25,172 nt of DNA from a virus (IMGVR_UViG_3300043395_000161:1-25172); one strand, 5' to 3'; numbered from the stretch's first letter, positions 1 through 25,172 are shown. A program made the numbers and translations. Notes: a model not told the origin generated them from the letters alone.

Positions 1-1500
1 ATGTATGAGTGGAATACAGGGAGACCAAAGCAATATATAAAAGGGGGGTTAAGAACTAAAGTAATTAATAGGTATGCTACTGGAGGAGGAGCTGCAAAGT
101 GGCTAAATCAGTATGATAATGGTGGAAATACTGATGAATGTCCTCCTGGTCAAATTTATCACCCACAATATGGATGCATATCATCTAAGGGCTGGCTAAA
201 AAACAGAGATGGTAGTTTGTATGAACTTAAATCAATAACCCAGGCAACCCCAGACGGTAAAAGATATGATTATATTACTGGAGAGTATGTATCTACTGTG
301 ATGGATCCTTTAATGTATACTAGTGCAGATGATGACGCAAAAAGAAATAGTCCTATCTCATCTGAGATACTATTAAATAAAGAGCTTCAGGATATAAAAT
401 TTGAGAAAGAGCAAAATGAACAGCTTAAGAAACTTCCACCATCGGGAGCTATTACTCCTGTTTTAGGTCCTGTAGAGTATGCTCTAGGTGCATATACACT
501 TGCCCCTATAGCATCTGCGGCAGCACCTTATGTTGGAGCAGCACTTAATACTCCCTTAAGTATAGGAGCTACAACGATCCCAGGAGCTACTTTAGGTAAT
601 GCTTTAACAGCAGGGTTCGGAGCTCGTAGTGCTTCAATGCTTGGTAATGATGTCTCAACAGGTTATTATGGTTCTGATGCACCCTTAATGGATAAGCTTT
701 ACAGAGGGTTAGACACAGGACTTGGATTTGTGGGAACAGGTGTATATCCAGCTTTAGGAAAAGGTTTAGGTGCTGGTTACAGAGGTTTAACTAACATAGG
801 AAAAACTTATGATAGAATAGCAACAGGAGAGACTTTTTTAACAGATTTAGGTTTAAAAGCTTGGAAAAGTCCAGCTGTAGGTTTATCTCAATCAGCATCT
901 GATGATATGTTTAGATCATTACTTAATAGTGGTAAACTTGCACCTGAGGAAAGAGCATTAATTATAGAGTATCAACATAATAGTCGACCATTTACAGGAA
1001 GAGATTTAAGGTGGACTACTTCAGAGCAAGCTCTAGTTAATGCAAAAAAAAGACAAGATTTAAATAACATCATTAATAAATATCGGGCAGGAATTGGTGA
1101 TGACGTTGTGCTAACAAGAATGTTTGGTGACCATCCAGGTGCTTTAGGTGCTAAATTAGAAAAAGGTAGATTAAATTTTGGAGATAGACCCACATCTTTT
1201 ACAGCAGGTGTGCAACCTGCAGGTTATGCTCGATCTATTAATAGAGTAGTTATACCAAGAAGATATTCTAAACAGTTGGGGGACAAATTTTTAGTTAATC
1301 AGTATGATCTTCCTTCTGAAGATGTTTTTAGACATTTAGATGATAGCGCAAAAGATTTTGCGTCGTGGTTAGGAACTAATTCAAAGGTAGCGCAAGAAAG
1401 AGAACTAATAGGAACCGGTCTTGATTTTAGACAGATAGGTAAAGTAAAAAATGATATTGGCGGTTATGATCTAATAGTTAAACCAAACACACCTAAATAA
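1..1500 (+). CDS. Putative virion-internal protein with candidate C-terminal ADP-ribosyltransferase domain
   Basis: 499 codons ending in TAA. The ATG is the first base of the window, so the true start could lie upstream. Residues 1-60 carry repeated GG motifs (YIKGGLR, YATGGG, YDNGG) followed by a paired-cysteine motif, C47-P-P-G to C59, also found in the last gene of the window. Residues about 145-270 are Gly/Ala/Pro-rich and mildly hydrophobic, as in phage ejection or cargo proteins. The C-terminal 130 residues contain, in the order of R-S-E class ADP-ribosyltransferases, R373 in VVLTRMFG, S399-F-T401, and E466-R-E468 followed by L-I-x-x-G-x-x-F. Codon use (GGA/GGT glycine, NNT before CCN proline) differs from most of the window. 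Virion location is inferred from context and the GG motifs. The enzyme call is motif-based; an EndoU/barnase-like toxin fold is an alternative. Confidence 0.6.
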   Translation: MYEWNTGRPKQYIKGGLRTKVINRYATGGGAAKWLNQYDNGGNTDECPPGQIYHPQYGCISSKGWLKNRDGSLYELKSITQATPDGKRYDYITGEYVSTVMDPLMYTSADDDAKRNSPISSEILLNKELQDIKFEKEQNEQLKKLPPSGAITPVLGPVEYALGAYTLAPIASAAAPYVGAALNTPLSIGATTIPGATLGNALTAGFGARSASMLGNDVSTGYYGSDAPLMDKLYRGLDTGLGFVGTGVYPALGKGLGAGYRGLTNIGKTYDRIATGETFLTDLGLKAWKSPAVGLSQSASDDMFRSLLNSGKLAPEERALIIEYQHNSRPFTGRDLRWTTSEQALVNAKKRQDLNNIINKYRAGIGDDVVLTRMFGDHPGALGAKLEKGRLNFGDRPTSFTAGVQPAGYARSINRVVIPRRYSKQLGDKFLVNQYDLPSEDVFRHLDDSAKDFASWLGTNSKVAQERELIGTGLDFRQIGKVKNDIGGYDLIVKPNTPK

Positions 1501-7396: not shown

Positions 7397-7876
7397 ATGG
7401 CTACAATTGATTCAATAACTCTGACTGCTAATTGTGATACTATCACAGTCACTTTTAGTGATATGGCTGCAACTGTTGATGTAAGTTATTACAACTCAAT
7501 AACTGAAACTGAATACCTTGAAACTATCTCAGATAGTGGAGATCCTACAACTTTGTGGGTCCTTGATGCAACAACAGTAGAAGGGGTTGGGTCATTTAAT
7601 GGGGTTATAACAATATCAGAAGTAGACGGAGATAGTGATTACATTGTAGCTACGTGTGAAATAGACTGCTGCATTTCAAGTCTAGTGGAATCAGCTATTA
7701 ACTGCACATGTGAATGTGATAAATGTGATGATGATTTAAGAATAGCTGAAAAAGTTCAACTTTTAGTGGTATCAGCTAAGCATTCTACTTACTCACAAAG
7801 CAATATAACTGATGCAGTAGCTAAATACAACAAAGCAAAAGATTTCTGCACCGCAACTTGTGCTTGTGGCTGCTAA
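7397..7876 (+). CDS. Small protein with cysteine-rich, probably metal-binding C-terminus
   Basis: 159 residues. The first 90 are Thr/Ser/Asp-rich and beta-like. The last 65 hold 11 of the 12 cysteines: CEIDCC near residue 90, then CTCECDKC, a helix (RIAEKVQLLVVSAKHS), then CTATCACGC at the end. A cysteine cluster, a helix and a second cluster suggest a zinc-binding or disulfide-linked domain. I recall similar Cys-rich tails in small proteins of other Bacteroidota phage structural clusters but know no function. The stop is followed within 10 bases by the start of the next gene. Confidence 0.65.
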   Translation: MATIDSITLTANCDTITVTFSDMAATVDVSYYNSITETEYLETISDSGDPTTLWVLDATTVEGVGSFNGVITISEVDGDSDYIVATCEIDCCISSLVESAINCTCECDKCDDDLRIAEKVQLLVVSAKHSTYSQSNITDAVAKYNKAKDFCTATCACGC

Positions 7877-13230: not shown

Positions 13231-13458
13231 ATGTCAACTTTAAAACTAAAAATGCACGACAATCAACTAGAATGGGTAGGGCTTAATGCTATTTGGGCAG
13301 GCTGGACTTGGGCAATGTTATCTAACTCGATAACTTGGACACTTGGGATAATAGGGGGTATAACCCTTATTTGGTTTAATATAGAAAGAGCACTTACTGC
13401 TAGAAAACAACGAGCCATGTACGATAAAAAATTACAAGACAATGAAGAAAATGCTTAA
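13231..13458 (+). CDS. Small membrane protein, holin candidate
   Basis: 75 residues. Residues about 15-50 form one long or two short hydrophobic segments (WVGLNAIWAGWTWAMLSNSI, then TWTLGIIGGITLIWFNIE), followed by a basic, charged tail (RALTARKQRAMYDKK). Size, a hydrophobic hairpin and a charged C-terminus are usual for holins, which open the inner membrane at lysis. However, no lysis enzyme gene lies nearby, so it could equally be a virion membrane or assembly protein. The next gene starts inside its last 17 bases. Confidence 0.6.
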   Translation: MSTLKLKMHDNQLEWVGLNAIWAGWTWAMLSNSITWTLGIIGGITLIWFNIERALTARKQRAMYDKKLQDNEENA

Positions 13459-14371
13459 AAGAGCTGACGGCTCGTATAGTCAAAGAGGGTTGTGGGATAA
13501 TATCAGGGCAAATAAAGGCTCTGGTAATCCCCCTACTAAAGAGATGCTTGAACAAGAAGCTAAAATTAAAAGTAAAAAATATGGGGATGGAGGTCCTGAA
13601 GACCCCCCAAGAAAAAAAGGTGCTTTAAGAAGACTTCTTGGGATTAAAAGTGGGTTTTCCCCACAGTACATAGCCCCAGGTAGTGCAGCTGCTCAGGAAA
13701 GAAATAAACAAGGTTGCACATCCCCAGAGTGTAGAGATAAAATGGGGGGTAGAGATGCAGCTGCATGGACAAGAAACGGAGGAGGATCTATGGGGGGAAT
13801 GGATACACAGTCTGGGCAAAAACCACCTCCACTAGAAGTAATGGGGCGAGCAGATGCAGATAAAGCTAACTTTTTAGAAGATGCTAGATACCCTGATAAA
13901 CTTGTAATAGACCCTAAAACTGGGGAAAAGACTATTATACAAGATCGTTCAAAGCCTTATAATTTTTTCCAAAGAATGGGGAATCGGTTTAGGGGTTACG
14001 AAAAAACTGATTTAGGGGGAGCTACAATGGGGGGTAAAAATATGGAGTACATAGACCCTAACTCCCCTTCTTTAATTGCTACTAATACTAATGAGCAACC
14101 TTCATTAGGTCCTATGAAGTGGACACCAATGACTTATACCCCGGATACCACTATAGGCAATCAAAAAATAGAACCTGCTCAATATGGGGATAGAAACTAC
14201 CCAGAAGGACCCCCATCATTGAAAGCAATGAAGCCGACTCCTAAATTTAATATAAATGATACACTCCCTAAATTTAAAAAAGGGGGAGTTAAAAATAAAT
14301 CATTTATTGAAGACTCTAAAGAACTGATGTTTGGGGGAGTTTCTAATAAAAGAAAAAAAGGTAAATACTAA
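13442..14371 (+). CDS. Gly/Pro/Lys-rich phage protein with RADGSYSQRGLWDNIR motif
   Basis: 309 residues from the ATG at 13442; the ATG at 13451 is an equally good start and gives MLKRADGSYSQRG. Residues 4-50 (GLWDNIRANKGSGNPPTKEM and on) match an N-terminal motif I recall from many Bacteroidota phage proteins of unknown function. The rest is low complexity, rich in Gly, Pro, Lys and Met, with GG motifs (YGDGGPEDPP, FKKGGVKNK) and a CTSPEC pair near residue 95. Near the C-terminus (287-300), SFIEDSKELMFGGV closely resembles residues 26-39 of the next protein. Probably disordered; perhaps carried in the virion. No catalytic motif. Confidence 0.65.
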   Translation: MKKMLKRADGSYSQRGLWDNIRANKGSGNPPTKEMLEQEAKIKSKKYGDGGPEDPPRKKGALRRLLGIKSGFSPQYIAPGSAAAQERNKQGCTSPECRDKMGGRDAAAWTRNGGGSMGGMDTQSGQKPPPLEVMGRADADKANFLEDARYPDKLVIDPKTGEKTIIQDRSKPYNFFQRMGNRFRGYEKTDLGGATMGGKNMEYIDPNSPSLIATNTNEQPSLGPMKWTPMTYTPDTTIGNQKIEPAQYGDRNYPEGPPSLKAMKPTPKFNINDTLPKFKKGGVKNKSFIEDSKELMFGGVSNKRKKGKY

Positions 14372-14389: not shown

Positions 14390-14965
14390 ATGAAAGGCAT
14401 GTATAAAAAAGGTGGTAAAGACCTTAAATCTAAAGTAATGAAAGAAGCCAAAAAAGAAAAGGAATCTTTCATGGAGGAGAGCAAAGAGCTTTCTTTTGGG
14501 AGAGTCAAAAAAGAAACTGGAGGCCCTGGTGACGAGATGAGTAGAGGTGAAGCTAGGCTTACTAACAGGATTAACAGAAACAAACTAAAGCTTGAACAAG
14601 CTCAAAAAGAATACAACCAATCCCCAGATGACCCAAAAGATTTGTACAGATCTACTCCAGGTGGAACTGAAATGCTTGAGAAATATATTGAGCAGAAAAC
14701 AAACAAAGTGAAAAAGCTTGAAGATAGAAAAAATAGAAAATATCCTACAAAAACTTATGTAGCTAAAACAGGTGGAGCTAAGTCTATGGAGCCAGGTGGT
14801 GGTGGAAGATTTGCTAAGATGGTAAAAGGCTTGAAAAAGAGTGGTAAGTCTGAGGAATCTGCTGAAGCAATTGCTGCCTCTATTGGAAGAAAGAAGTACG
14901 GTAAGTCTAAGTTCCAGGCTATGGCTAATGCTGGTAAGAAGAAAATGGGGGGAGCTAATTGTTAA
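14390..14965 (+). CDS. Lys-rich phage protein, GG-motif and KSEESAxAIAASIGRKKYG type
   Basis: 191 residues, very basic. It opens MKGMYKKGGKD (ATG 14399 is an alternative start) and carries SFMEESKELSFGRV at residues 26-39, matching a segment near the end of the previous protein. A charged helical middle follows. The C-terminal 50 residues, FAKMVKGLKKSGKSEESAEA then IAASIGRKKYGKSKF, form a motif I recall at the C-terminus of small proteins in many Bacteroidota phages. The basic charge suggests nucleic-acid binding. Function is not established. Confidence 0.65.
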   Translation: MKGMYKKGGKDLKSKVMKEAKKEKESFMEESKELSFGRVKKETGGPGDEMSRGEARLTNRINRNKLKLEQAQKEYNQSPDDPKDLYRSTPGGTEMLEKYIEQKTNKVKKLEDRKNRKYPTKTYVAKTGGAKSMEPGGGGRFAKMVKGLKKSGKSEESAEAIAASIGRKKYGKSKFQAMANAGKKKMGGANC

Positions 14966-15482: not shown

Positions 15483-16379
15483 ATGATTTACAAACTGATT
15501 TCTAGCAAGGCTATAATTAGGAAGGTTATGAGAGATCTCAAGCCTCCTGGGGATAACTGGATTGACGATGCCGTAGAGTGGATGGGGGAAGCTCTTGACC
15601 ATATTGGGTCAGCTCCTCAGCTTGAACAGAAGAACTGTGTCATCACAATCAAGAATTTTAAAGCTTTGCTTCCTGCTGATCTCTATTACTTAGAGCAAGT
15701 AGGGGTTAATAACTCCATTAACCCATCAGTTACTAATGAGTTAGATGCTCTATTTGAACAAATTAAGGAGCTTAATGCACAGATTGTATCTGACCCTAAT
15801 GATAAAATAGCTTTCAATAATCAATTAAGAACATTGAATGCTAGAGTAATGGTTCTTGAGAACTTATACTTAAATACAGGTCAGCCTTTAACCCCTTTAC
15901 AATATGCTACAACTACATTTCATGCCAGTGCAGATTGTGAAGATTGTAAGAATTTATATGGGGTTATCAAACCTAGTTACTTTATAGATGGGGATTACAT
16001 TAAGACATCATTCCAAGATGGGGCTGTTTGCATTAGCTACAAAGCTTTCCCAATAGATGATGACTGCTACCCTATGGTCCCAGATAATATCAGCTTTAAA
16101 GAAGCTTTATTCTGGTATGTATACAAGCAAATGCTGCTTGGGGGATACATGCCATCTATGAATGGGATTGGGTATGACTTTGCAGATAATAAATGGAAGT
16201 TTTACTGCTCTCAAGCTAGAAATAGCTCTAACTTCCCAAGCATTGACAAGTACGAATCGTTCTTGAATCAGTGGGTTAGACTTGTCCCTAACTTGAATAG
16301 ACATGCTAACTTCTTTGAGAACATGGGAACTAGAGAAACTTTGGATAGAGGAAGATATACTAACTACGGAATACTATAA
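15483..16379 (+). CDS. Conserved Bacteroidota-phage virion structural protein (neck/tail type)
   Basis: 298 residues. The N-terminus SKAIIRKVMRDLKPPGDNWI then DDAVEWMGEALDHIG, and a following Leu-Pro segment (FKALLPADLYYLEQ), match a pattern I recall from structural proteins of crAss-like and related phages. Residues 85-125 include a heptad-like helix and a Gln/Asn-rich stretch. A CEDC pair occurs near residue 150. The C-terminal half is aromatic-rich. It starts just after the IHF-like gene and its stop shares one base with the start of the giant virion gene (TAATG), so the two products are probably made in fixed ratio and assemble together at the neck or tail. Confidence 0.62.
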   Translation: MIYKLISSKAIIRKVMRDLKPPGDNWIDDAVEWMGEALDHIGSAPQLEQKNCVITIKNFKALLPADLYYLEQVGVNNSINPSVTNELDALFEQIKELNAQIVSDPNDKIAFNNQLRTLNARVMVLENLYLNTGQPLTPLQYATTTFHASADCEDCKNLYGVIKPSYFIDGDYIKTSFQDGAVCISYKAFPIDDDCYPMVPDNISFKEALFWYVYKQMLLGGYMPSMNGIGYDFADNKWKFYCSQARNSSNFPSIDKYESFLNQWVRLVPNLNRHANFFENMGTRETLDRGRYTNYGIL

Positions 16380-19300
16380 TGGCTGAAGATTTAAAGTTTG
16401 TAAAAGGGATGTTTAAGGATACTGGTCCAATTGACCAGCCTGACTACACCTACCGTGATGCATTAAATGCAGTTATTGATCAAAACAAAGCTGCTATATT
16501 TAATGAAGTTGGGAACTCTTTTGTAAGTTCTATAGTAGCTGACTATAATGGGGAGTTAATCCCAGTTAGTGTAGTAGGGGCAATTCCATTAGAAGATGAT
16601 AATATCGTAGTATTTGCTTGTAGACAAAAAGTTAAGATAACTAACTCTGTAACATTTGTAGACGTATCAGCTATTTTGCTTATTGATACAGGGAATAAAA
16701 AGACTAAAACTCTTTATATAACTACAAATGAAGACCCATTTACAGGGGTAGATTCTAAATATGGGCACTTAGATTTTAATGTTTCTTACCCTATAACTGG
16801 GGAGTATAGAGTGTCAGCTAACGGGGATATTCTAGTTTACTTTACAGATAACAGATATGTGATAAACACAGACCCTGCAACTGGAATCGAGTACATTGAG
16901 AAATACAATCCCCCAAGAGTATTTAACATAACAAGGCAATTAGAGAAGATTACATCTGGGCCTAGCACGTTTCTTTATACCTCCCCTTCTAAACACGTAG
17001 AAGTATTAAACATCTTTATGGATTCAGGGTCAATCCCTGAGTTTGAAAGCATTGAGATAAAATTTGGGGGAGGAGTTGAAAGTGGGACATACCACTTAGG
17101 ATTAGCTTATGCAGATAGAGACTTTACAGAAACTAACGTACTAACTGTATCTAACCCAGTATATGTAGTCCCTAATGATGACACTACTATCCCAAGGGAG
17201 ATTATCACAGGATCCCCTAATGAAACACAAACTGGGAAAACAATTAACTGGAACATTGATCTTAACTCAGTTAATTACGATTATGAATATTTAGTCCCTT
17301 ATATTATACAAAGAATAGGGACTGCAGTATTTGCAAATAAGTTAGAGGCTATAAAATTATACCCTGGAGCTAAACTAAAAGTTTCTTACAGTGGGATAGA
17401 GAATGCAGCTCAATCAGCATTAGCTGAAGTAGCTATTGATAAAGTAAAATTCATAGCAGCTAATGCAATAACTCAATTAGATAACAGACTTTATCTAGCA
17501 AATTTAACTGCAAGAAAAGATATTGGGTATCAAAGATTTGCTAATAACATTAAACTTGATGCTGTTACAGAGACTGTATCTAAGTTTGATCCTAGACACT
17601 ATGATATCTATAATTTAAATATAGGGTATGCACAACTAGTATACCCTGATAACCCAGGCTCTTCTTCAATCCCTGATATAACTGTAAATAAAGGGAGAAT
17701 GTCTACATACATTCAAACAGTTATCAAGCCTATACAGCAGAATACACACAGAGGATATAGAGACCCAGACTTTTTATTTAAGAAAAAAGGGTACAGAAGA
17801 GGAGAAGTTTATGCATTCTACATCTCATTTGTATTAAAAGATGGGAGTGAAACATTTGCTTATCATATCCCTGGAAGGGCTGCTAGAGTGCTAAACCCTA
17901 ATGCCCCAGCTGTTATACCTAGAATAAGTGAGACAGATTCTTTAACTACATATTCTGCATACTCAGCTTTATCTTTAATACAAAGTTTTAATGGGCTTGA
18001 AGTTACAGCTTCTAATCCTGATGCTAAGGTATATCAATATCTAGACACAAGTACTCAGCTAGGGTTAACAACAGGATTTTGGAGGAATCAAAATGAATTC
18101 TACCCTACAGATGAAGTTGACTTTGAGATATGGAAAGTAGATAACAATGGAAATGGGGTTAATACTTTAACTTCTTTAGAGGGGTTAAATGTTAGGCACC
18201 ATAAGATGCCATCTAACCATAACTCTAACTTTAGCTATGTACAAACCAATGTTGACTTCTCTACCCCGGGGCTTACAGTTCAGGGGACTAACAGTGTAGA
18301 TTTCAAAGAAGATATTAGAATTTTAGGGATTAAATTATCAGATATCTCTATCCCAAAATTCATTTTAAAGCAAGTACAAGGGTATAAGATTTATTATGCA
18401 AAGAGAAACCAGTATGATAAAACAATCATAGGGCAAAGTGGGGCACACCCTGCAACCCCTTATCTTACTGCTAATATTGGGACTACAAAAGAAGATGCTA
18501 AATATGGTCCTTACTACAGCCTTTGGCAGATGGATGGGTATCATCATAGCACAGGGTTATTGAACAATGATGCTTTGTGGACTCAAGCTTCTTATCTTTC
18601 ACAGCCTGTATTTAAATTTCATGACTTTAATCTTTTAAGAAAGAAGCACACATTAGCTACTGCAACCCACATTGATATCCAGTTCATAGCAACTATGCAT
18701 GCATGGAATGGGGGATTCAAAGGAGTTCGTCCAAAACCAATTGCAGATGCAGTAATAGAAGGGGTAGACAGTATGTTCTACACATCATTTAGAACAGGGC
18801 ATGGGGACTCTGATTATATATGGATACACCCAGATTTAGGGAATACGATAAATAGAGACTTAACAGAAGGGGATGTATCTTATGATGTACAAGGCCCTAG
18901 AATACTGTGGGGAACTGTCTTTGTAGCAGCAAGATATAATCACCCAGGCCAAGCAGGGGTTGACATTGGTAATCCATATAGTTTGTCTATTGCAGTAGGG
19001 AGAGGTCAAAAGTTTGAGGCTAATCAAGCTAACTTATTGTCTACTATGCAGACTATATTTATGATTGCCCCTAACTCTGCAAGTTACTTAAATGGGTTAT
19101 CTATCTTAAGTAATCAAGCAGCTACTGCATATCAAGGGGCTACATACTTAGCTAACACTAGTGGGGAAAGCTCAATAGCTATCGGATTAGTTTCTGGGTT
19201 ACCTACATTATTTGGGTATAACTCAGGCTCAGTAGAAAATTCACAGTTTCAACAACTTTGGAATGTATTAAACTTTATAGAGGTAAGTAAAGTCCCAATA

Positions 19301-21688
19301 GATCCTGAGGCAGCTTCTTACCAAGAAGATATTGAATCTTTACCACAATGGATGCAAACTTTTTGGGGATACACCCCTTATGGATATATATATAATAATA
19401 TAATATACCCTCCTGAAGATCCTGAAAACACTATTACAGGACGGTTGTCCACAGGAAGAGAATATCTTACAGCATTTAACAATGACTATGGCAAAGCAAA
19501 TGTTTACTTAGTTAACTTATGCTCTGCTAAAACAAATGTCTTTGAACCATTTGATACACAAACTCTAGTATGGACTGGGTTTTATCAGAATCTTCGTGAT
19601 GTAGATGTAGAAACTGGTTGGGGTACTAATAGCAATAATAAGTCTGTAAACTATTATACTGGGGCTGATTCCCCTAATATATTCGGGGGAGATACATATA
19701 TTGTAAGGCATTCTTACAGAATAACATCTCAGAATAGTCAGCTAGTTTACTTTAAGATTGGGGAGAATGCTGAGTACCCTGATAATACTAACTCTCAAGG
19801 TCAGTTTATACGAGGGAATACCCCATTCAATATGCTAGAGGGGTATACAGGGAATGATAAAGTGTTGTGGGTTACTGGGGATTACACACAAAGAGTAGAT
19901 ACTGTAGCATCTGGAGATAACTCAGATGATAACTGGAGTACTGGGGATCATAATGTATTTGCCACAATCTTCCAGTTTATGGTGGAGGCTGACGATAACA
20001 TTAACTACAGACACTCCGGGGATGTGGAGAAAGGAGTCCCAGTTTCATCTAGTGTATTCTTTGACAGGCACGTAGCATCTGAGGTTCTATTTAGATCCCC
20101 ACTTCGTGACTTAACTAAGATGGATAATATCTTGTATGAAGATGTGTACTCAGCTGTACAAGATATCAGAGTTACAACCCCTTATGGGAAAGGGATAACA
20201 ACTGTATTTAATTTCCCTAACAGGATTATTAGATCCTCTGTATTAGATGGGAACTTTAATGATACTTACAGGTACTTCTTAGCTTTAGATTATAAAGACT
20301 TTGCAGTAAATAAAGGGGAGATTAAGAACATATTTAACTTAAATGCTCTCCTGCATATACACACAGAGAGAAGCTTATACAGAACTAAAGGTAAACAAGT
20401 TGTACAGTTATCTGATGCTTCTCAAGCTTATATTGGAAGTGGAGATTTATTTGCTCAAGAACCAGATGAATTCTTACAAAGTTTTGATGGGCATATAGGG
20501 CTGAATGGTAAGATGGCTGCTTTAGTAACAAAGGCTGGATATGTCTTTGTAGCTAGAAAATCTAAGAGAATATTCTTAGTAGCTGGGGAGATTAAAGACC
20601 TTACAGAAATAGGGATTACTACATGGGCTAGAAATAACATCCCATTTGACATTGAGAACTATGGATACGTATTTGAAAGTGATACATCAGTAGCTTCAGA
20701 TGCCCCAACAGATAAGTTTGGGTTTGTGGCAGGTTATGATCCTTTATTCAAAAGAATTATCATAACTAAACACGAACTTGTCCCATCAAGTAAGTTTAAA
20801 GCTTTATACTTTAATAGCCAGGCAAAGTTTGAGAAGAATGTCCCTATGGTGGTTAACGATGATGGGAAGTGGGTTACAACTTCTTTACAGGATAATGACT
20901 ACTTTGATATAGGGGGATGGACAATATCATACTCAACAGATTCTCAAGTATGGGTTAGTAGACACAGCTATGTATCTCCACTACTCCCATTCACAAGTTC
21001 TGCTATGTACAGCTTTAAGCCTATCACTATAAACTATATAGGGGTAGGAGTAGGGGCTAGTACACAGCTTGTCCCTGGGGGAATTTATTCACACAATAAC
21101 GTAGATAATCCTGGTAATTTCTATGGAAGTACATATAACTTTGAAGTAGACTGTGTGTTTACAGGGGAGGTTAAAAAGTCAATTCAAGGAGCAACTAGCA
21201 TGAAAAATGAGAACAGACTTTATTCTGCTGTCTCATTTGTATCTAATACTATCTCTAAAACATTTGCTCAAGATCCTGAAGCTCTGATATTTGACCCTGG
21301 ATTTACAAGTTACTATGTATACAATACTCACCAAAACTCAGGGGTTACTACATTTAAATACTTAGAGAATCTTAGGAAAGTAGAAGGGCATTGGACCTTT
21401 AATAATTTCAGAGATATGTCTAGTGTGTTCTATACTTCAGGATTAGTTAATGGGCAGGTAGATGTACAAGGTAATCCATACAACGGAAGTTATACCCCAG
21501 TATCTGCTCCTATGTTTTCAGCAGAAGGGGTTGTAAACCCTGGTTATATAAACAGTTCTAAACCTTGGTATGAACAAAAGAAATTTGTAGATAAGTACTT
21601 AGGACTTAGATTAATTTGCAACAACGGATCAAAAAATTTAGTAAGTTTGTATACTGTGTCTGCAGCTTACAGAATATCTCCAAGATAA
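16379..21688 (+). CDS. Giant virion protein (tail stabilisation/muzzle-like), 1769 residues
   Basis: The N-terminus FVKGMFKDTGPIDQPDYTYR followed by DALNAVIDQ matches the signature GMxKD...P..Y.DALN of large tail proteins in crAss-like and related Bacteroidota phages. The body is Asn/Gly/Tyr-rich with regular short beta motifs, consistent with a propeller-like or repeated beta fold; no signal peptide or membrane segment is seen. Near the C-terminus, W1672 in HWTFNNFRD and the final segment (KFVDKYLGLRLICNNGSKN, then a Y-R-x-S-x-R end) are typical of the same group. I expect it to form the outer or distal part of the tail, possibly with receptor contact. The gene is unbroken, with heavy use of GGG glycine and C-ending codons before proline. 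Confidence 0.72.
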   Translation: MAEDLKFVKGMFKDTGPIDQPDYTYRDALNAVIDQNKAAIFNEVGNSFVSSIVADYNGELIPVSVVGAIPLEDDNIVVFACRQKVKITNSVTFVDVSAILLIDTGNKKTKTLYITTNEDPFTGVDSKYGHLDFNVSYPITGEYRVSANGDILVYFTDNRYVINTDPATGIEYIEKYNPPRVFNITRQLEKITSGPSTFLYTSPSKHVEVLNIFMDSGSIPEFESIEIKFGGGVESGTYHLGLAYADRDFTETNVLTVSNPVYVVPNDDTTIPREIITGSPNETQTGKTINWNIDLNSVNYDYEYLVPYIIQRIGTAVFANKLEAIKLYPGAKLKVSYSGIENAAQSALAEVAIDKVKFIAANAITQLDNRLYLANLTARKDIGYQRFANNIKLDAVTETVSKFDPRHYDIYNLNIGYAQLVYPDNPGSSSIPDITVNKGRMSTYIQTVIKPIQQNTHRGYRDPDFLFKKKGYRRGEVYAFYISFVLKDGSETFAYHIPGRAARVLNPNAPAVIPRISETDSLTTYSAYSALSLIQSFNGLEVTASNPDAKVYQYLDTSTQLGLTTGFWRNQNEFYPTDEVDFEIWKVDNNGNGVNTLTSLEGLNVRHHKMPSNHNSNFSYVQTNVDFSTPGLTVQGTNSVDFKEDIRILGIKLSDISIPKFILKQVQGYKIYYAKRNQYDKTIIGQSGAHPATPYLTANIGTTKEDAKYGPYYSLWQMDGYHHSTGLLNNDALWTQASYLSQPVFKFHDFNLLRKKHTLATATHIDIQFIATMHAWNGGFKGVRPKPIADAVIEGVDSMFYTSFRTGHGDSDYIWIHPDLGNTINRDLTEGDVSYDVQGPRILWGTVFVAARYNHPGQAGVDIGNPYSLSIAVGRGQKFEANQANLLSTMQTIFMIAPNSASYLNGLSILSNQAATAYQGATYLANTSGESSIAIGLVSGLPTLFGYNSGSVENSQFQQLWNVLNFIEVSKVPIDPEAASYQEDIESLPQWMQTFWGYTPYGYIYNNIIYPPEDPENTITGRLSTGREYLTAFNNDYGKANVYLVNLCSAKTNVFEPFDTQTLVWTGFYQNLRDVDVETGWGTNSNNKSVNYYTGADSPNIFGGDTYIVRHSYRITSQNSQLVYFKIGENAEYPDNTNSQGQFIRGNTPFNMLEGYTGNDKVLWVTGDYTQRVDTVASGDNSDDNWSTGDHNVFATIFQFMVEADDNINYRHSGDVEKGVPVSSSVFFDRHVASEVLFRSPLRDLTKMDNILYEDVYSAVQDIRVTTPYGKGITTVFNFPNRIIRSSVLDGNFNDTYRYFLALDYKDFAVNKGEIKNIFNLNALLHIHTERSLYRTKGKQVVQLSDASQAYIGSGDLFAQEPDEFLQSFDGHIGLNGKMAALVTKAGYVFVARKSKRIFLVAGEIKDLTEIGITTWARNNIPFDIENYGYVFESDTSVASDAPTDKFGFVAGYDPLFKRIIITKHELVPSSKFKALYFNSQAKFEKNVPMVVNDDGKWVTTSLQDNDYFDIGGWTISYSTDSQVWVSRHSYVSPLLPFTSSAMYSFKPITINYIGVGVGASTQLVPGGIYSHNNVDNPGNFYGSTYNFEVDCVFTGEVKKSIQGATSMKNENRLYSAVSFVSNTISKTFAQDPEALIFDPGFTSYYVYNTHQNSGVTTFKYLENLRKVEGHWTFNNFRDMSSVFYTSGLVNGQVDVQGNPYNGSYTPVSAPMFSAEGVVNPGYINSSKPWYEQKKFVDKYLGLRLICNNGSKNLVSLYTVSAAYRISPR

Positions 21689-21689
21689 T

Positions 21690-24600
21690 ATGAAAAAACT
21701 ATCAAAAGTTAAAAAATACGGAGCTGGGGGTCCAGCTTCTCTCCCTGTTAGAGGAAACCTAGGGATAACTAAAAATATGGCTAATGACTTTGCTTACAGT
21801 GCAATAGGTAATGTGCAAGATGCAGAGGCAGCTAAGCAACAAAGTTATGACAACAAACTTAACTCTATGTTTAGTTCAGCTAAGAGTCTAATGGGGACAA
21901 AGTATTTTACTGGGGGAGTAGATCGATCTTGCCCTGAAGGGTATTATAGAGATTTTAATACAAATCAATGTGTTGCATTTGGGTCAAATGCAATAACTCC
22001 TGCCTCACAAATTAGCACAAATATTACTATCCCAGATACTCAAATGGGAGGGTCATACTTTGGGAGATATGAACCTACCCTGCAAGAGAAAGTAATGCAG
22101 AGTGCAACTAATAGTTTAAATAACCCAACTACTCAAGCCCCTCCACAATCTGGGGGAATAAATCCATCTGTATATGGAATAGCTGGACAAGCAGCTGGGT
22201 ATTTAGTTAGAAAAGGGACTGATGATAAGAATGAAGCAGTAGTCACAGATAAAGAAAGATTTGGGAATATGGCTGGTTCTGTTTTAGAATCTGCTGGTAA
22301 AGGAGCTGCATTAGGGAGCATGTTTGGTCCTTACGGGACAGCAATTGGTGCAGTTGGGGGAGCTGTATTTGGGGTAGTGCAAGGAAAGAAAGAAAACAAA
22401 GAAGCTAAGAAAACTGCAGCTAGAATTCAAGAAGATTCACTCATAGCAGGGAACTTAAATAGAGAAGCTATGTTAGCTAACTCAATGCCTAATCAAACTG
22501 GATTTGGGTATAAGAGCTCTACTAATATGAATATGCAGCCTACTAATTACTTCTCTGGAAAAACTGGGGGAGTAAGAAAAGTAGAGGGGGGAGTTATAAA
22601 GCAAATCCCTGGTACTGATGCAGTTAAATTCATTGGGAGAAGTCATGCTCAGGGAGGAATTAAAGTAGACCCTAAAACTGAGGTAGAAGGAGGAGAGACT
22701 CAAGATCAAGTGTACATGAAGAATAATGCAAAGCAAGATTATATCTACTCTAAGTATCTTAAGTTAGGGGGTAAATCCTTTGCTAAAAGACACGAAGAAA
22801 TCTTGAAATCAAATATGCCTGCAGTTCAAAAGCAGAATGCTATGCAAGATCTTGCTAAGATGCAAGAGCAAAAAGCTGGGAGAGATCCTCAGCAAATAGC
22901 TAAGACTGGGGGAGTTAGAAGATACTTAAATGGGGGCCCACAAGATTGTGGTCCTGATGAAGCATGGAGTGAAGCTGAGCAAAGATGTGTTCCTGGACCT
23001 ATGGTACGAGATTTAAGTACCACAGAACAACGTACATCAGGTTATTATTGGCCTAGACGTAACAACACCTGGTTAGATACTAGACTTGGAGATCCAGAGT
23101 ATACTATGAATAGTGGAGATTGGAATGAAGAGGATTATAATAAGGTATATGAAGGCAGGGATAAAGGTAAGTATGTAAGATTTGAGCCTAGACTTCCTAA
23201 TAATGTTACTGGAGATTTAAATGAAGGATCTACTGAAGTTGGTCCAGCTGATAAATATAGAATCTTCCAAAATGCAGAAGGAGATTACATCTTAAGAGAT
23301 GCTGACAATAATGAGATTACAAGAAGCAAGGATTTAAATACTGTCTATCAAGCAAAAGGAAGATTAGTTAATAAAGGGTTCTTCCAAAATAAAGATAATA
23401 CTATAACAGAGCCTACAAAGGTAGAAACAGTAGCAGATTTAAATACCCCTATAGATCAGCAGATAGTAAGCCAAGATCCAAATACTGGTGTGTATTCTAT
23501 AACAGATAAAAGTGGAAACGAAGTATTTAGTAGCGGTGATATAAATGATGTACTTACTTACAATCGTGATCAAGCTGCAAAGAATACACCGTCAGAACAA
23601 CCTGTTCAATCTAAAATTCAGAATGATACTGTAGATATAGATTTTTCTAAATTTACTGCAGAAAAAGCTGCTGAAGAATTAAATAAAGTATATAACGTAG
23701 ATAACGGAGGTGTTGTTCCAGCAGATGTAATTGAAGCTTACACCAATTACTATAGCTCGCAAGAAGAACAGCCTGCTTCAAATACTACTAATACTAATAC
23801 AATCCCAACAGTAGCAGACCTCAATACTCCTTTAACTTCACAAGGATCAGCTGATGCTCAATCAAATGCAGATGCTGTAGATGTAACATTAAGAGATGAG
23901 AATAAAGCTAACTCTAATGCCCCATCTGATCAAACTGTTGTTACTGAAGGGTCAGACTCTAATGCTTCTGGGGTTAATGCAATGCAGCAAGATAGACCTA
24001 AGAGAGATAATGAGCCTACTTACTTTATGGGGGCTAAAAGAAAGATTGATGACTTAGGTAATGTAGCTGTAGGGAATCAACTTCTTCAAGGTCATGGAGC
24101 TTTGATTGGCTCTGGATTAGGGACTACTGGAGAAACAATAGAAGAAAGACAAAAGAATATTATTGGGACAGCTGTTGAAAGAAAGCAAGAGAATGACTAT
24201 GTAAATAAGAGTGAAAAAGTAGGGGGGCTCTCATCTTCTAATGCTATAAAAGATAGAGAAAAAATAGCACAAACAGACTGGGGTAAATACTTTGGTTATA
24301 AGCCTGGAATGAGTAAGGATGATGCTCGAAAAGCACACGATAATTATGCTACTCAAGCTAATGAGTTATTTACTAAAGACCCAGACTTAGTATTAAGTTA
24401 CTTCCAATACATGCTTGATAATGCAACTACGGGAAGTGAAGCTGAGCAAATAAAAAATTATCTTAAAGGTAAAGGGCACATTACTACAGAGAAGAATGGA
24501 AGAGCTGTAATAAATAGAAGTGCATTAAAGATTCTACAAGAACAAGCTACTAATGATGAGGTAGGGCCTATCCATAATTCAATGGCTTATTTAACTTCTA

Positions 24601-25172
24601 CAGAAAGGAAAGATGCAATTCCTATTGCAACTTATACCCCACCTGAAGAGCCTCAGCCTGAAGAACAGCCTGAGAAAAGATATACTCCCCCATCAGATTG
24701 TCCCCCAAACTCATATAGAAATCCAACAACTGGAAGATGTGAGCCTTTAAGTCCTTATCAAGCACAAGAGAGATTTACAGGTATTATCCCACAGTTAGCT
24801 CAATTAGTTCCTGTAGGATATTCACTGTTAAACCCTTACCAAATTCAATCAGGTATTGGGGCTGTAGGTTCTGCAGCAAGAGCTATTCTCCCAAGAGTTA
24901 ATTACAATCAAGAAAGAGCATCTCTTATTGATCAGAATGTAGCATTAAGAAATGCAATAACTTCTCAGAATGCAGGTCCTGGAGCACTGTCTGCTATGAT
25001 GGCTGCAGGAACTCAAGCAGCTAAAAATCAATTAGCTATATCTCAATCAGAGTCTGAAGCTAATAAGCAACTAGCTGCTGAAGAGGCTCGATTGAATCTG
25101 CAAGCAGCCATGTCTAACCAAGAGATGGGGATGAAGAGAGAGATGTTTAATAAAGAATTTGCTAATAAGCAA
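21690..25172 (+). CDS. Very large virion-internal (cargo/ejection-type) protein, 3' end outside window
   Basis: Open from ATG 21690 to the window end, 1161 codons without a stop; the C-terminus is missing. The N-terminus KKLSKVKKYGAGGPASL and later YFTGGVD, KTGGVRKVEGGVIKQI, LGGKSF and RYLNGG repeat the GG theme of gene 1. Residues about 208-235 form a Gly/Ala-rich hydrophobic zipper (GSMFGPYGTAIGAVGGAVFG), able to insert in a membrane. SHAQGGIKVDPKTEVEGGET (about 325-345) is a motif I associate with large structural proteins of Bacteroidota phages. Paired-cysteine motifs occur at 81-94, 420-433 and 1004-1017. Residues about 418-750 differ in codon use and hold internal repeats. The C-terminal part seen is Gln/Ala/Glu-rich and helical. 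Likely ejected with the DNA; a tape-measure-like role is possible. Confidence 0.65.
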   Translation, partial: MKKLSKVKKYGAGGPASLPVRGNLGITKNMANDFAYSAIGNVQDAEAAKQQSYDNKLNSMFSSAKSLMGTKYFTGGVDRSCPEGYYRDFNTNQCVAFGSNAITPASQISTNITIPDTQMGGSYFGRYEPTLQEKVMQSATNSLNNPTTQAPPQSGGINPSVYGIAGQAAGYLVRKGTDDKNEAVVTDKERFGNMAGSVLESAGKGAALGSMFGPYGTAIGAVGGAVFGVVQGKKENKEAKKTAARIQEDSLIAGNLNREAMLANSMPNQTGFGYKSSTNMNMQPTNYFSGKTGGVRKVEGGVIKQIPGTDAVKFIGRSHAQGGIKVDPKTEVEGGETQDQVYMKNNAKQDYIYSKYLKLGGKSFAKRHEEILKSNMPAVQKQNAMQDLAKMQEQKAGRDPQQIAKTGGVRRYLNGGPQDCGPDEAWSEAEQRCVPGPMVRDLSTTEQRTSGYYWPRRNNTWLDTRLGDPEYTMNSGDWNEEDYNKVYEGRDKGKYVRFEPRLPNNVTGDLNEGSTEVGPADKYRIFQNAEGDYILRDADNNEITRSKDLNTVYQAKGRLVNKGFFQNKDNTITEPTKVETVADLNTPIDQQIVSQDPNTGVYSITDKSGNEVFSSGDINDVLTYNRDQAAKNTPSEQPVQSKIQNDTVDIDFSKFTAEKAAEELNKVYNVDNGGVVPADVIEAYTNYYSSQEEQPASNTTNTNTIPTVADLNTPLTSQGSADAQSNADAVDVTLRDENKANSNAPSDQTVVTEGSDSNASGVNAMQQDRPKRDNEPTYFMGAKRKIDDLGNVAVGNQLLQGHGALIGSGLGTTGETIEERQKNIIGTAVERKQENDYVNKSEKVGGLSSSNAIKDREKIAQTDWGKYFGYKPGMSKDDARKAHDNYATQANELFTKDPDLVLSYFQYMLDNATTGSEAEQIKNYLKGKGHITTEKNGRAVINRSALKILQEQATNDEVGPIHNSMAYLTSTERKDAIPIATYTPPEEPQPEEQPEKRYTPPSDCPPNSYRNPTTGRCEPLSPYQAQERFTGIIPQLAQLVPVGYSLLNPYQIQSGIGAVGSAARAILPRVNYNQERASLIDQNVALRNAITSQNAGPGALSAMMAAGTQAAKNQLAISQSESEANKQLAAEEARLNLQAAMSNQEMGMKREMFNKEFANKQ
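23280..23573 (+). repeat. Two degenerate protein repeats in the last gene
   Basis: 29-residue units begin at 23280 (GDYILRDADNNEITRSKDLN onward) and 23487 (GVYSITDKSGNEVFSSGDIN onward). They share nine positions: G1, Y3, D7, N11, E12, S16, D18, N20 and V22. The heptapeptide VADLNTP also appears twice, at 23430-23450 and 23811-23831, with different codons. Both lie in the segment whose codon use differs from the rest of the gene. Confidence 0.4.

Follow-up and report, generated by a model that had tools for sequence, protein, structure and literature searches.

The paired-cysteine segments found in a crAss-like phage probably act as optional disulfide hairpins at payload joints: we favour a reading in which the cargo protein C1 and a hypervariable slot protein encoded ahead of the MCP both consist of conserved ends and an exchangeable payload, joined by GG linkers and, in some members, by such hairpins. 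The window, that is, the whole stretch of DNA that was analysed (25,172 nucleotides), is a 25-kb IMG/VR virus record of a crAss-like phage; its MCP matches Pfam Crass_capsid (E 6e-81) and the ORF at 15483-16379 matches CrAss_Ring_1 (E 1e-59). Among human gut viruses, crassviruses are the most abundant, and environmental metagenomes contain them too. A recognisable joint, composed of a GG linker and an optional disulfide hairpin, would reveal cargo proteins and payload boundaries from sequence alone; it also draws attention to a hypervariable cargo slot next to a nearly invariant capsid gene, and it opens the redox state of ejected phage proteins to direct tests. The coordinates of all features are collected in Table 1.

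Table 1. Features of the window discussed in the text
Feature	Position	Strand	Basis
Gene 1, slot protein, 5' part missing	1..1500	+	first ~30 residues match relatives internally; gene order in relatives
GG linker INRYATGGG of gene 1	64..90	+	motif [KR][YF]xx[GA]G
Module 1, gene 1 residues 47-59, NGGNTDE-CPPGQIYHPQYGC	139..177	+	pattern; 9.2 bits, relatives-only HMM
Gene 1 C-terminal payload	850..1497	+	ADP-ribosyltransferase-like motifs (LTR, PTSFTAG, ERELIG), recognised only by eye
Third GG-linker family (KYGDGG, KFKKGG), conserved ends, variable middle	13442..14371	+
Partner ORF of third family, fused to the third-family ORF in several relatives	14390..14965	+
Last ORF, homologue of cargo protein C1, truncated at the 3' end	21690..25172	+	hhalign matches to gp45-type C1 proteins in three collinear blocks; muzzle-C1 gene order
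N-terminal GG linker KKYGAGG	21711..21731	+	shared by almost all close C1 homologues
GG linker KYFTGG, before module 2	21900..21917	+
Module 2, last ORF residues 81-94, CPEGYYRDFNTNQC	21930..21971	+	pattern; 13.2 bits, relatives-only HMM
Conserved C1 core, residues 270-407, matching the portal-bound domain of gp45	22497..22910	+
GG linker RYLNGG, N-edge of payload	22920..22937	+
Module 3, last ORF residues 420-433, CGPDEAWSEAEQRC, N-junction	22947..22988	+	pattern; spacing to GG anchor
Variable payload region, residues 434-1003	22989..24698	+
Module 4, last ORF residues 1004-1017, CPPNSYRNPTTGRC, C-junction	24699..24740	+	pattern; spacing to QL anchor; AF2
Conserved C-terminal helical region of C1, residues 1035-1161, cut by contig end	24792..25172	+

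The last ORF as a C1 homologue

An alignment of 14 C1 homologues matches PhicrAss001 gp45 in hhalign (E 2.2e-8, probability 95). With the gp45, DAC15 and bajarodcaudo virus 1 proteins, the C1 alignment shares three blocks in collinear order (E 4e-6 to 4e-5; probabilities 71-87), one of which is the portal-bound domain of gp45. Pfam crAss_CARG1 (PF25725), which gp45 itself matches with an E of 2.3e-66, does not detect the last ORF at E<=1, and tblastn of the gene 1 and last-ORF proteins against cultured phages gave no match. The last ORF directly follows a large virion protein gene (16379-21688, phrog_15100), and in relatives the C1 homologue is followed by genes of 765 and 2344 aa. In PhicrAss001 the gene order is gp44-gp45-gp46-gp47, with gp45 directly after the muzzle gene gp44; the last ORF fits this order, in which C1 comes directly after the muzzle gene and ahead of the large RNAP-subunit genes. 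Cryo-EM places gp45, which is cargo protein C1, in capsid and tail, and mass spectrometry detects it; C1 links capsid with tail and is believed to be the first to exit, partly unfolded (PMC10172136). Judged by profile matches and gene order, the last ORF is a crAss-like cargo/ejection protein C1, presence in the virion being known only for gp45.

Apart from gene position and the three blocks including the portal-bound domain, the window protein shares with gp45 the occurrence of GG motifs throughout, and gp45 has one Cys pair beside GG (YCGGKVTEAC). It differs from gp45 in its larger size, its payload and its Cys module (CPxG..C). Payloads are swapped among C1 homologues, with DUF2272 found in some; PG_binding-like segments seen by eye in the C1 proteins of G001, G020 and G024 were unconfirmed by Pfam. 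The AF2 model of the window C1 is poor overall (mean pLDDT 51). Its payload comprises two beta-beta-beta-alpha repeats (residues 523-561 and 592-632; window 23256-23372 and 23463-23585, pLDDT about 72-88) and a helical domain (residues 849-970). In Foldseek, small phage proteins match part of the model, and one of 44 aa, annotated SPOR (prob 1.00, E 0.13), probably falls on a beta-beta-beta-alpha repeat of the prediction; the search against PDB and BFVD gave no match with E<=0.001. The PDB matches of a two-sequence profile (A1) to Gram-positive surface-protein repeats were weak (E 8e-5) and covered its variable region.

Cysteine pairs and GG linkers at payload joints

The original prediction described four short segments in gene 1 and the last gene, each with a GG or a similar motif followed by C-[PG]-x-[GDN]-x(8-9)-C. 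All four are present at the positions it had given, and GG precedes three of them, the fourth being preceded by a Pro-rich stretch (TPPSDC). They contain every cysteine of the two proteins (2 of 2 in gene 1 and 6 of 6 in the last ORF), and no other ORF of the window has the C-[PG]-x-[GDN]-x(8-9)-C pattern. In the AF2 model, module 4 appears as an isolated beta-hairpin (residues 1008-1019, strands 1008-1010 and 1017-1019) with a pLDDT of ~80 and low-confidence flanks. Module 2 is predicted with low confidence as a beta-hairpin (85-88/93-96), and module 3 is unstructured.

Searches for the module covered IMG/VR and phage records. In 17 related contigs the CPxG..C module is limited to C1 homologues (G003, G005, G011, G013, G015, G017, G021 and G022) and pre-MCP slot proteins (G013 and G018; L050 too), the remaining C..C regex matches falling in a small Cys-rich protein that has CxxC pairs and in proteins of unrelated sequence. 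Of the four window copies, a profile HMM built solely from the relatives' modules found three (13.2, 9.2 and 7.6 bits); among 1,957 ORFs it gave one further non-training match, which was weak (10 residues, 7.0 bits). As the best score on 39,140 shuffled proteins was 8.6, only the 13.2-bit copy is clear by score, and position supports the other copies. Matches of the consensus module in cultured phages were weak and confined to unrelated phages (best E 0.4), and were discounted. The notion of a portable module is upheld, and in the 17 contigs the module is confined to the C1 and slot families. The further claim that it marks virion-internal proteins fits the C1 family, homologous to the proven virion cargo protein gp45; the slot family, encoded among the head genes, is a putative virion component. 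Loss of the cysteines in homologues, which had been named as an observation that would speak against the idea, is seen in part: about half of the C1 homologues have none, so the module is dispensable.

The modules of C1 are concentrated at the two borders of the variable payload: 10 of 14 are no more than 40 aa away from a border, where random placement would give 1.0 (0 of 20,000 trials). Their distances to the conserved anchors are nearly constant. In six homologues, 17-21 aa separate the second Cys from the C-terminal anchor that follows it, and in three the first Cys comes 10-14 aa behind the GG anchor. For module 4, the distance to the conserved QL anchor region downstream is 19 aa, compared with 17-21 aa in five other C1 homologues. 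Module 3, the weakest copy and the one missed by the relatives-only HMM, occupies the same junction as the relatives' copies with similar spacing, 12 aa after the GG anchor compared with 14 and 10 aa. On the MCP tree, which is weakly resolved, module presence at the C-junction changes at least 6 times, and the module therefore appears easily gained and lost.

GG and the Cys pair do not form the single unit that had been proposed. Each is found without the other, which rules out an indivisible GG plus Cys tag, and some Cys pairs follow Pro-rich linkers. GG motifs occur with or without cysteines in C1, in the slot proteins and in a third family; the close C1 homologue L002 keeps the junction (QYKMAGPE) and has zero cysteines. 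The density of [KR][YF]xx[GA]G per 1000 aa is 1.8 in C1, 2.0 in slot proteins and 4.1 in the third family versus 0.05 in the remaining 842 proteins, a value lower than shuffled sequences would give; the motif is thus 36-80 times denser in the three cargo-like families. Proteins of the third family have a conserved C-terminus and a conserved N-terminal segment, RADGSYS.RGLWDNIRANKGSG..PT.EML. This segment recurs in residues 348-402 of the G024 C1 (L170) and hence is portable too.

A different Cys pair, YCGGKVTxxCI, with GG between the cysteines, is found in gp45 and distant C1 homologues, and in bajarodcaudo virus 1 C1 it adjoins a lysozyme-like insert. Like CPxG..C, this element of Steigviridae C1 is a small portable unit of GG and two Cys beside the payload, but it is a C-x(7)-C pair within a basic unit of ~40 aa and has no sequence similarity to CPxG..C. 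A basic GG/Cys-pair unit of ~55 aa, NRGKFT.YCGG.VT..CI.RG...RKRA.FA.NARKW, is tandemly duplicated in the DAC15 C1 (L208:26177-28675) and present as a single copy in PhicrAss001 gp45, and distant environmental C1 homologues (L192, L196 and L200) have its YCGG Cys-pair part N-terminally.

Gene 1 and the hypervariable slot

Gene 1 is probably a second, hypervariable cargo protein beside the head genes, belonging to a slot that in relatives lies between the portal and scaffold/MCP genes. Its first ~30 residues are 77-79% identical to internal residues 138-173 of the L004 and L006 slot proteins; gene 1 therefore starts inside the slot-protein pattern, its true start probably lies off the contig and M1 is probably internal. 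In the relatives L004-L083 the gene order is portal, a protein of ~140 aa, the hypervariable slot, an acidic protein of ~375 aa and MCP. Slot genes span about 90 to 1048 aa, and the MCPs of those relatives are 85-97% identical. The slot proteins have the N-terminal segment MDN.TRR..L..GYPGSILDVF in common and, at the other end, a tail that is rich in Lys and Tyr and contains GG; their middles are mostly unrelated between phages. Pfam payloads in individual slot proteins include ADP-ribosyltransferase (L048, a clear ADPrib_exo_Tox member with E 1.3e-10), lysozyme (L033), glucosaminidase and YkuD. The INRYATGGG linker of gene 1 is situated at the same place as INRFATGGA in L006 and VNRFANGGP in L004, and the sequences diverge beyond it.

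The C-terminus of gene 1 is a putative ADP-ribosyltransferase, as suggested by R-S-E motif-like residues. Its last 216 residues have a 57% identical stretch in L206 and L207, where the ADP-ribosyltransferase-like motif residues are invariant. This payload has no Pfam match, and the AF2 model of gene 1 (pLDDT 41) is too poor for fold assessment. The stretch is one domain of a 2286-aa multi-domain protein (L206:2343-9203; also in L207), the domains of which are separated by GG..LPKAQ[ND]G repeats; other domains resemble cysteine peptidases (CHAP/NlpC-like) by eye.

Role of the cysteine pair

All 32 nonredundant Cys-containing proteins of the C1 and slot families have an even number of cysteines, versus 166 of 328 background ORFs. 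After stricter redundancy removal and with the CYTC tail dropped, the ratio is 16 of 16 (P 1.5e-5), although the proteins share ancestry and the counts are not fully independent. Cys density per 1000 aa is 2.2 in the two families versus 5.8. The even number favours disulfides and, together with the low density, fits proteins that would avoid free thiols and act outside the reducing cytoplasm. Among the roles proposed earlier (packaging tag, protease site, metal site or disulfide clamp), the clamp is the best supported, a packaging tag or a metal site being conceivable as well.

A metal site, in which each Cys pair would supply half of a zinc site and another module or subunit the rest, would accord with the four-Cys clusters of two relatives (G017 CPDCPPGTICDPATGNC; L006 SCPCPPTCDC) and with the GG-x-CYTC tail, a CxxC pair, in which 19 of 47 slot proteins end. 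We nevertheless consider it very unlikely, as most modules are isolated and have two Cys only, zinc sites do not usually have a spacing of 12-13, some proteins have a single module (G005) and the module alignment shows no conserved His/Asp partners. The GG motifs might instead be maturation-protease sites separating payloads, with the Cys pair holding the cut ends together. Although GG lies between the payloads of the L206 protein and at both ends of the C1 and slot payloads, many sites read AG instead of GG and no phage protease was identified, and the paper on the PhicrAss001 structure mentions neither cleavage nor a protease (PMC10172136); a role as cleavage sites appears improbable.

Somewhat less improbable, but still unlikely, is that the Cys hairpins bind glycan (peptidoglycan) as minimal elements, akin to the C4-C5 loop of the chitin-binding CBM_14 (peritrophin-A) fold, and so anchor the ejected protein in the cell wall. 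The loop has a CP-x-G/N-x..C hairpin of similar spacing, and five proteins match CBM_14 below threshold, all at profile positions of about 28-49 (E 0.025-0.078). However, these score 13.6-15.2 against a curated cut-off of 22.1, each module has two Cys compared with the six cysteines and three disulfides of CBM_14, the other four being absent, and CPxG...C loops converge easily. Glycan binding would also suit the wall-acting payloads of relatives, the SPOR-annotated match to the C1 model and the lack of modules in homologues with a DUF2272 payload, but the last of these is based on few related genomes. That the motif is a matter of chance or low-complexity convergence, with no shared function, is most improbable of all: the motif is short and the 420-433 copy is a poor fit, but the exclusivity to two families in 17 contigs, the fixed anchor spacing and the cross-validated HMM argue against it.

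These results suggest that the cysteine hairpin, often located directly behind a Lys-Tyr-x-x-Gly-Gly linker, is a small oxidation-locked spacer for swappable cargo, and not a chance motif. In the model that we prefer, C1 and gene 1 would have conserved end segments around an exchangeable payload (wall hydrolases, ADP-ribosyltransferase and others). The [KR][YF]xx[GA]G stretches would provide flexible linkers at the payload joints, where the C-P-x-G-x(7-9)-C modules would form optional beta-hairpins of ~14 residues with one disulfide each. Such hairpins may serve as compact, unfolding-tolerant spacers or caps, their disulfides forming either in the virion or, as the protein is ejected, in the periplasm. 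During threading through portal and tail, the hairpin would be a small stable element between payload and backbone; flexible GG linkers and thin, stable single-disulfide spacers would suit this passage. A broader version, in which crAss-like phages possess a general cassette system of three loci with conserved ends, swappable payloads, a GG linker and single-disulfide caps acting as an oxidation-dependent lock or wall anchor, is conceivable but doubtful.

T7 gp16 and gp14, the P22 ejection proteins and T4 Alt, a packaged ADP-ribosyltransferase, are likewise carried in the virion and are wall-degrading or host-modifying. C1 and the slot proteins would resemble them by analogy of working mode, and to our knowledge none of these has modular joints with GG/Cys elements. 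C1 as cargo is already known; in the literature, mostly that outside subscription journals, we found no account of a joint module, an even-cysteine rule or a hypervariable cargo slot beside MCP, and nothing relevant on crAss cargo cleavage, an ADP-ribosyltransferase in crAss virions or peptidoglycan ejection proteins.

Elsewhere in the window, a Cys-rich ORF at 7397-7876 has 12 Cys in 159 aa and the C-terminal sequence ..CTATCACGC; its position is similar to that of PhicrAss001 gp38 (11 Cys, ..CGCYG).
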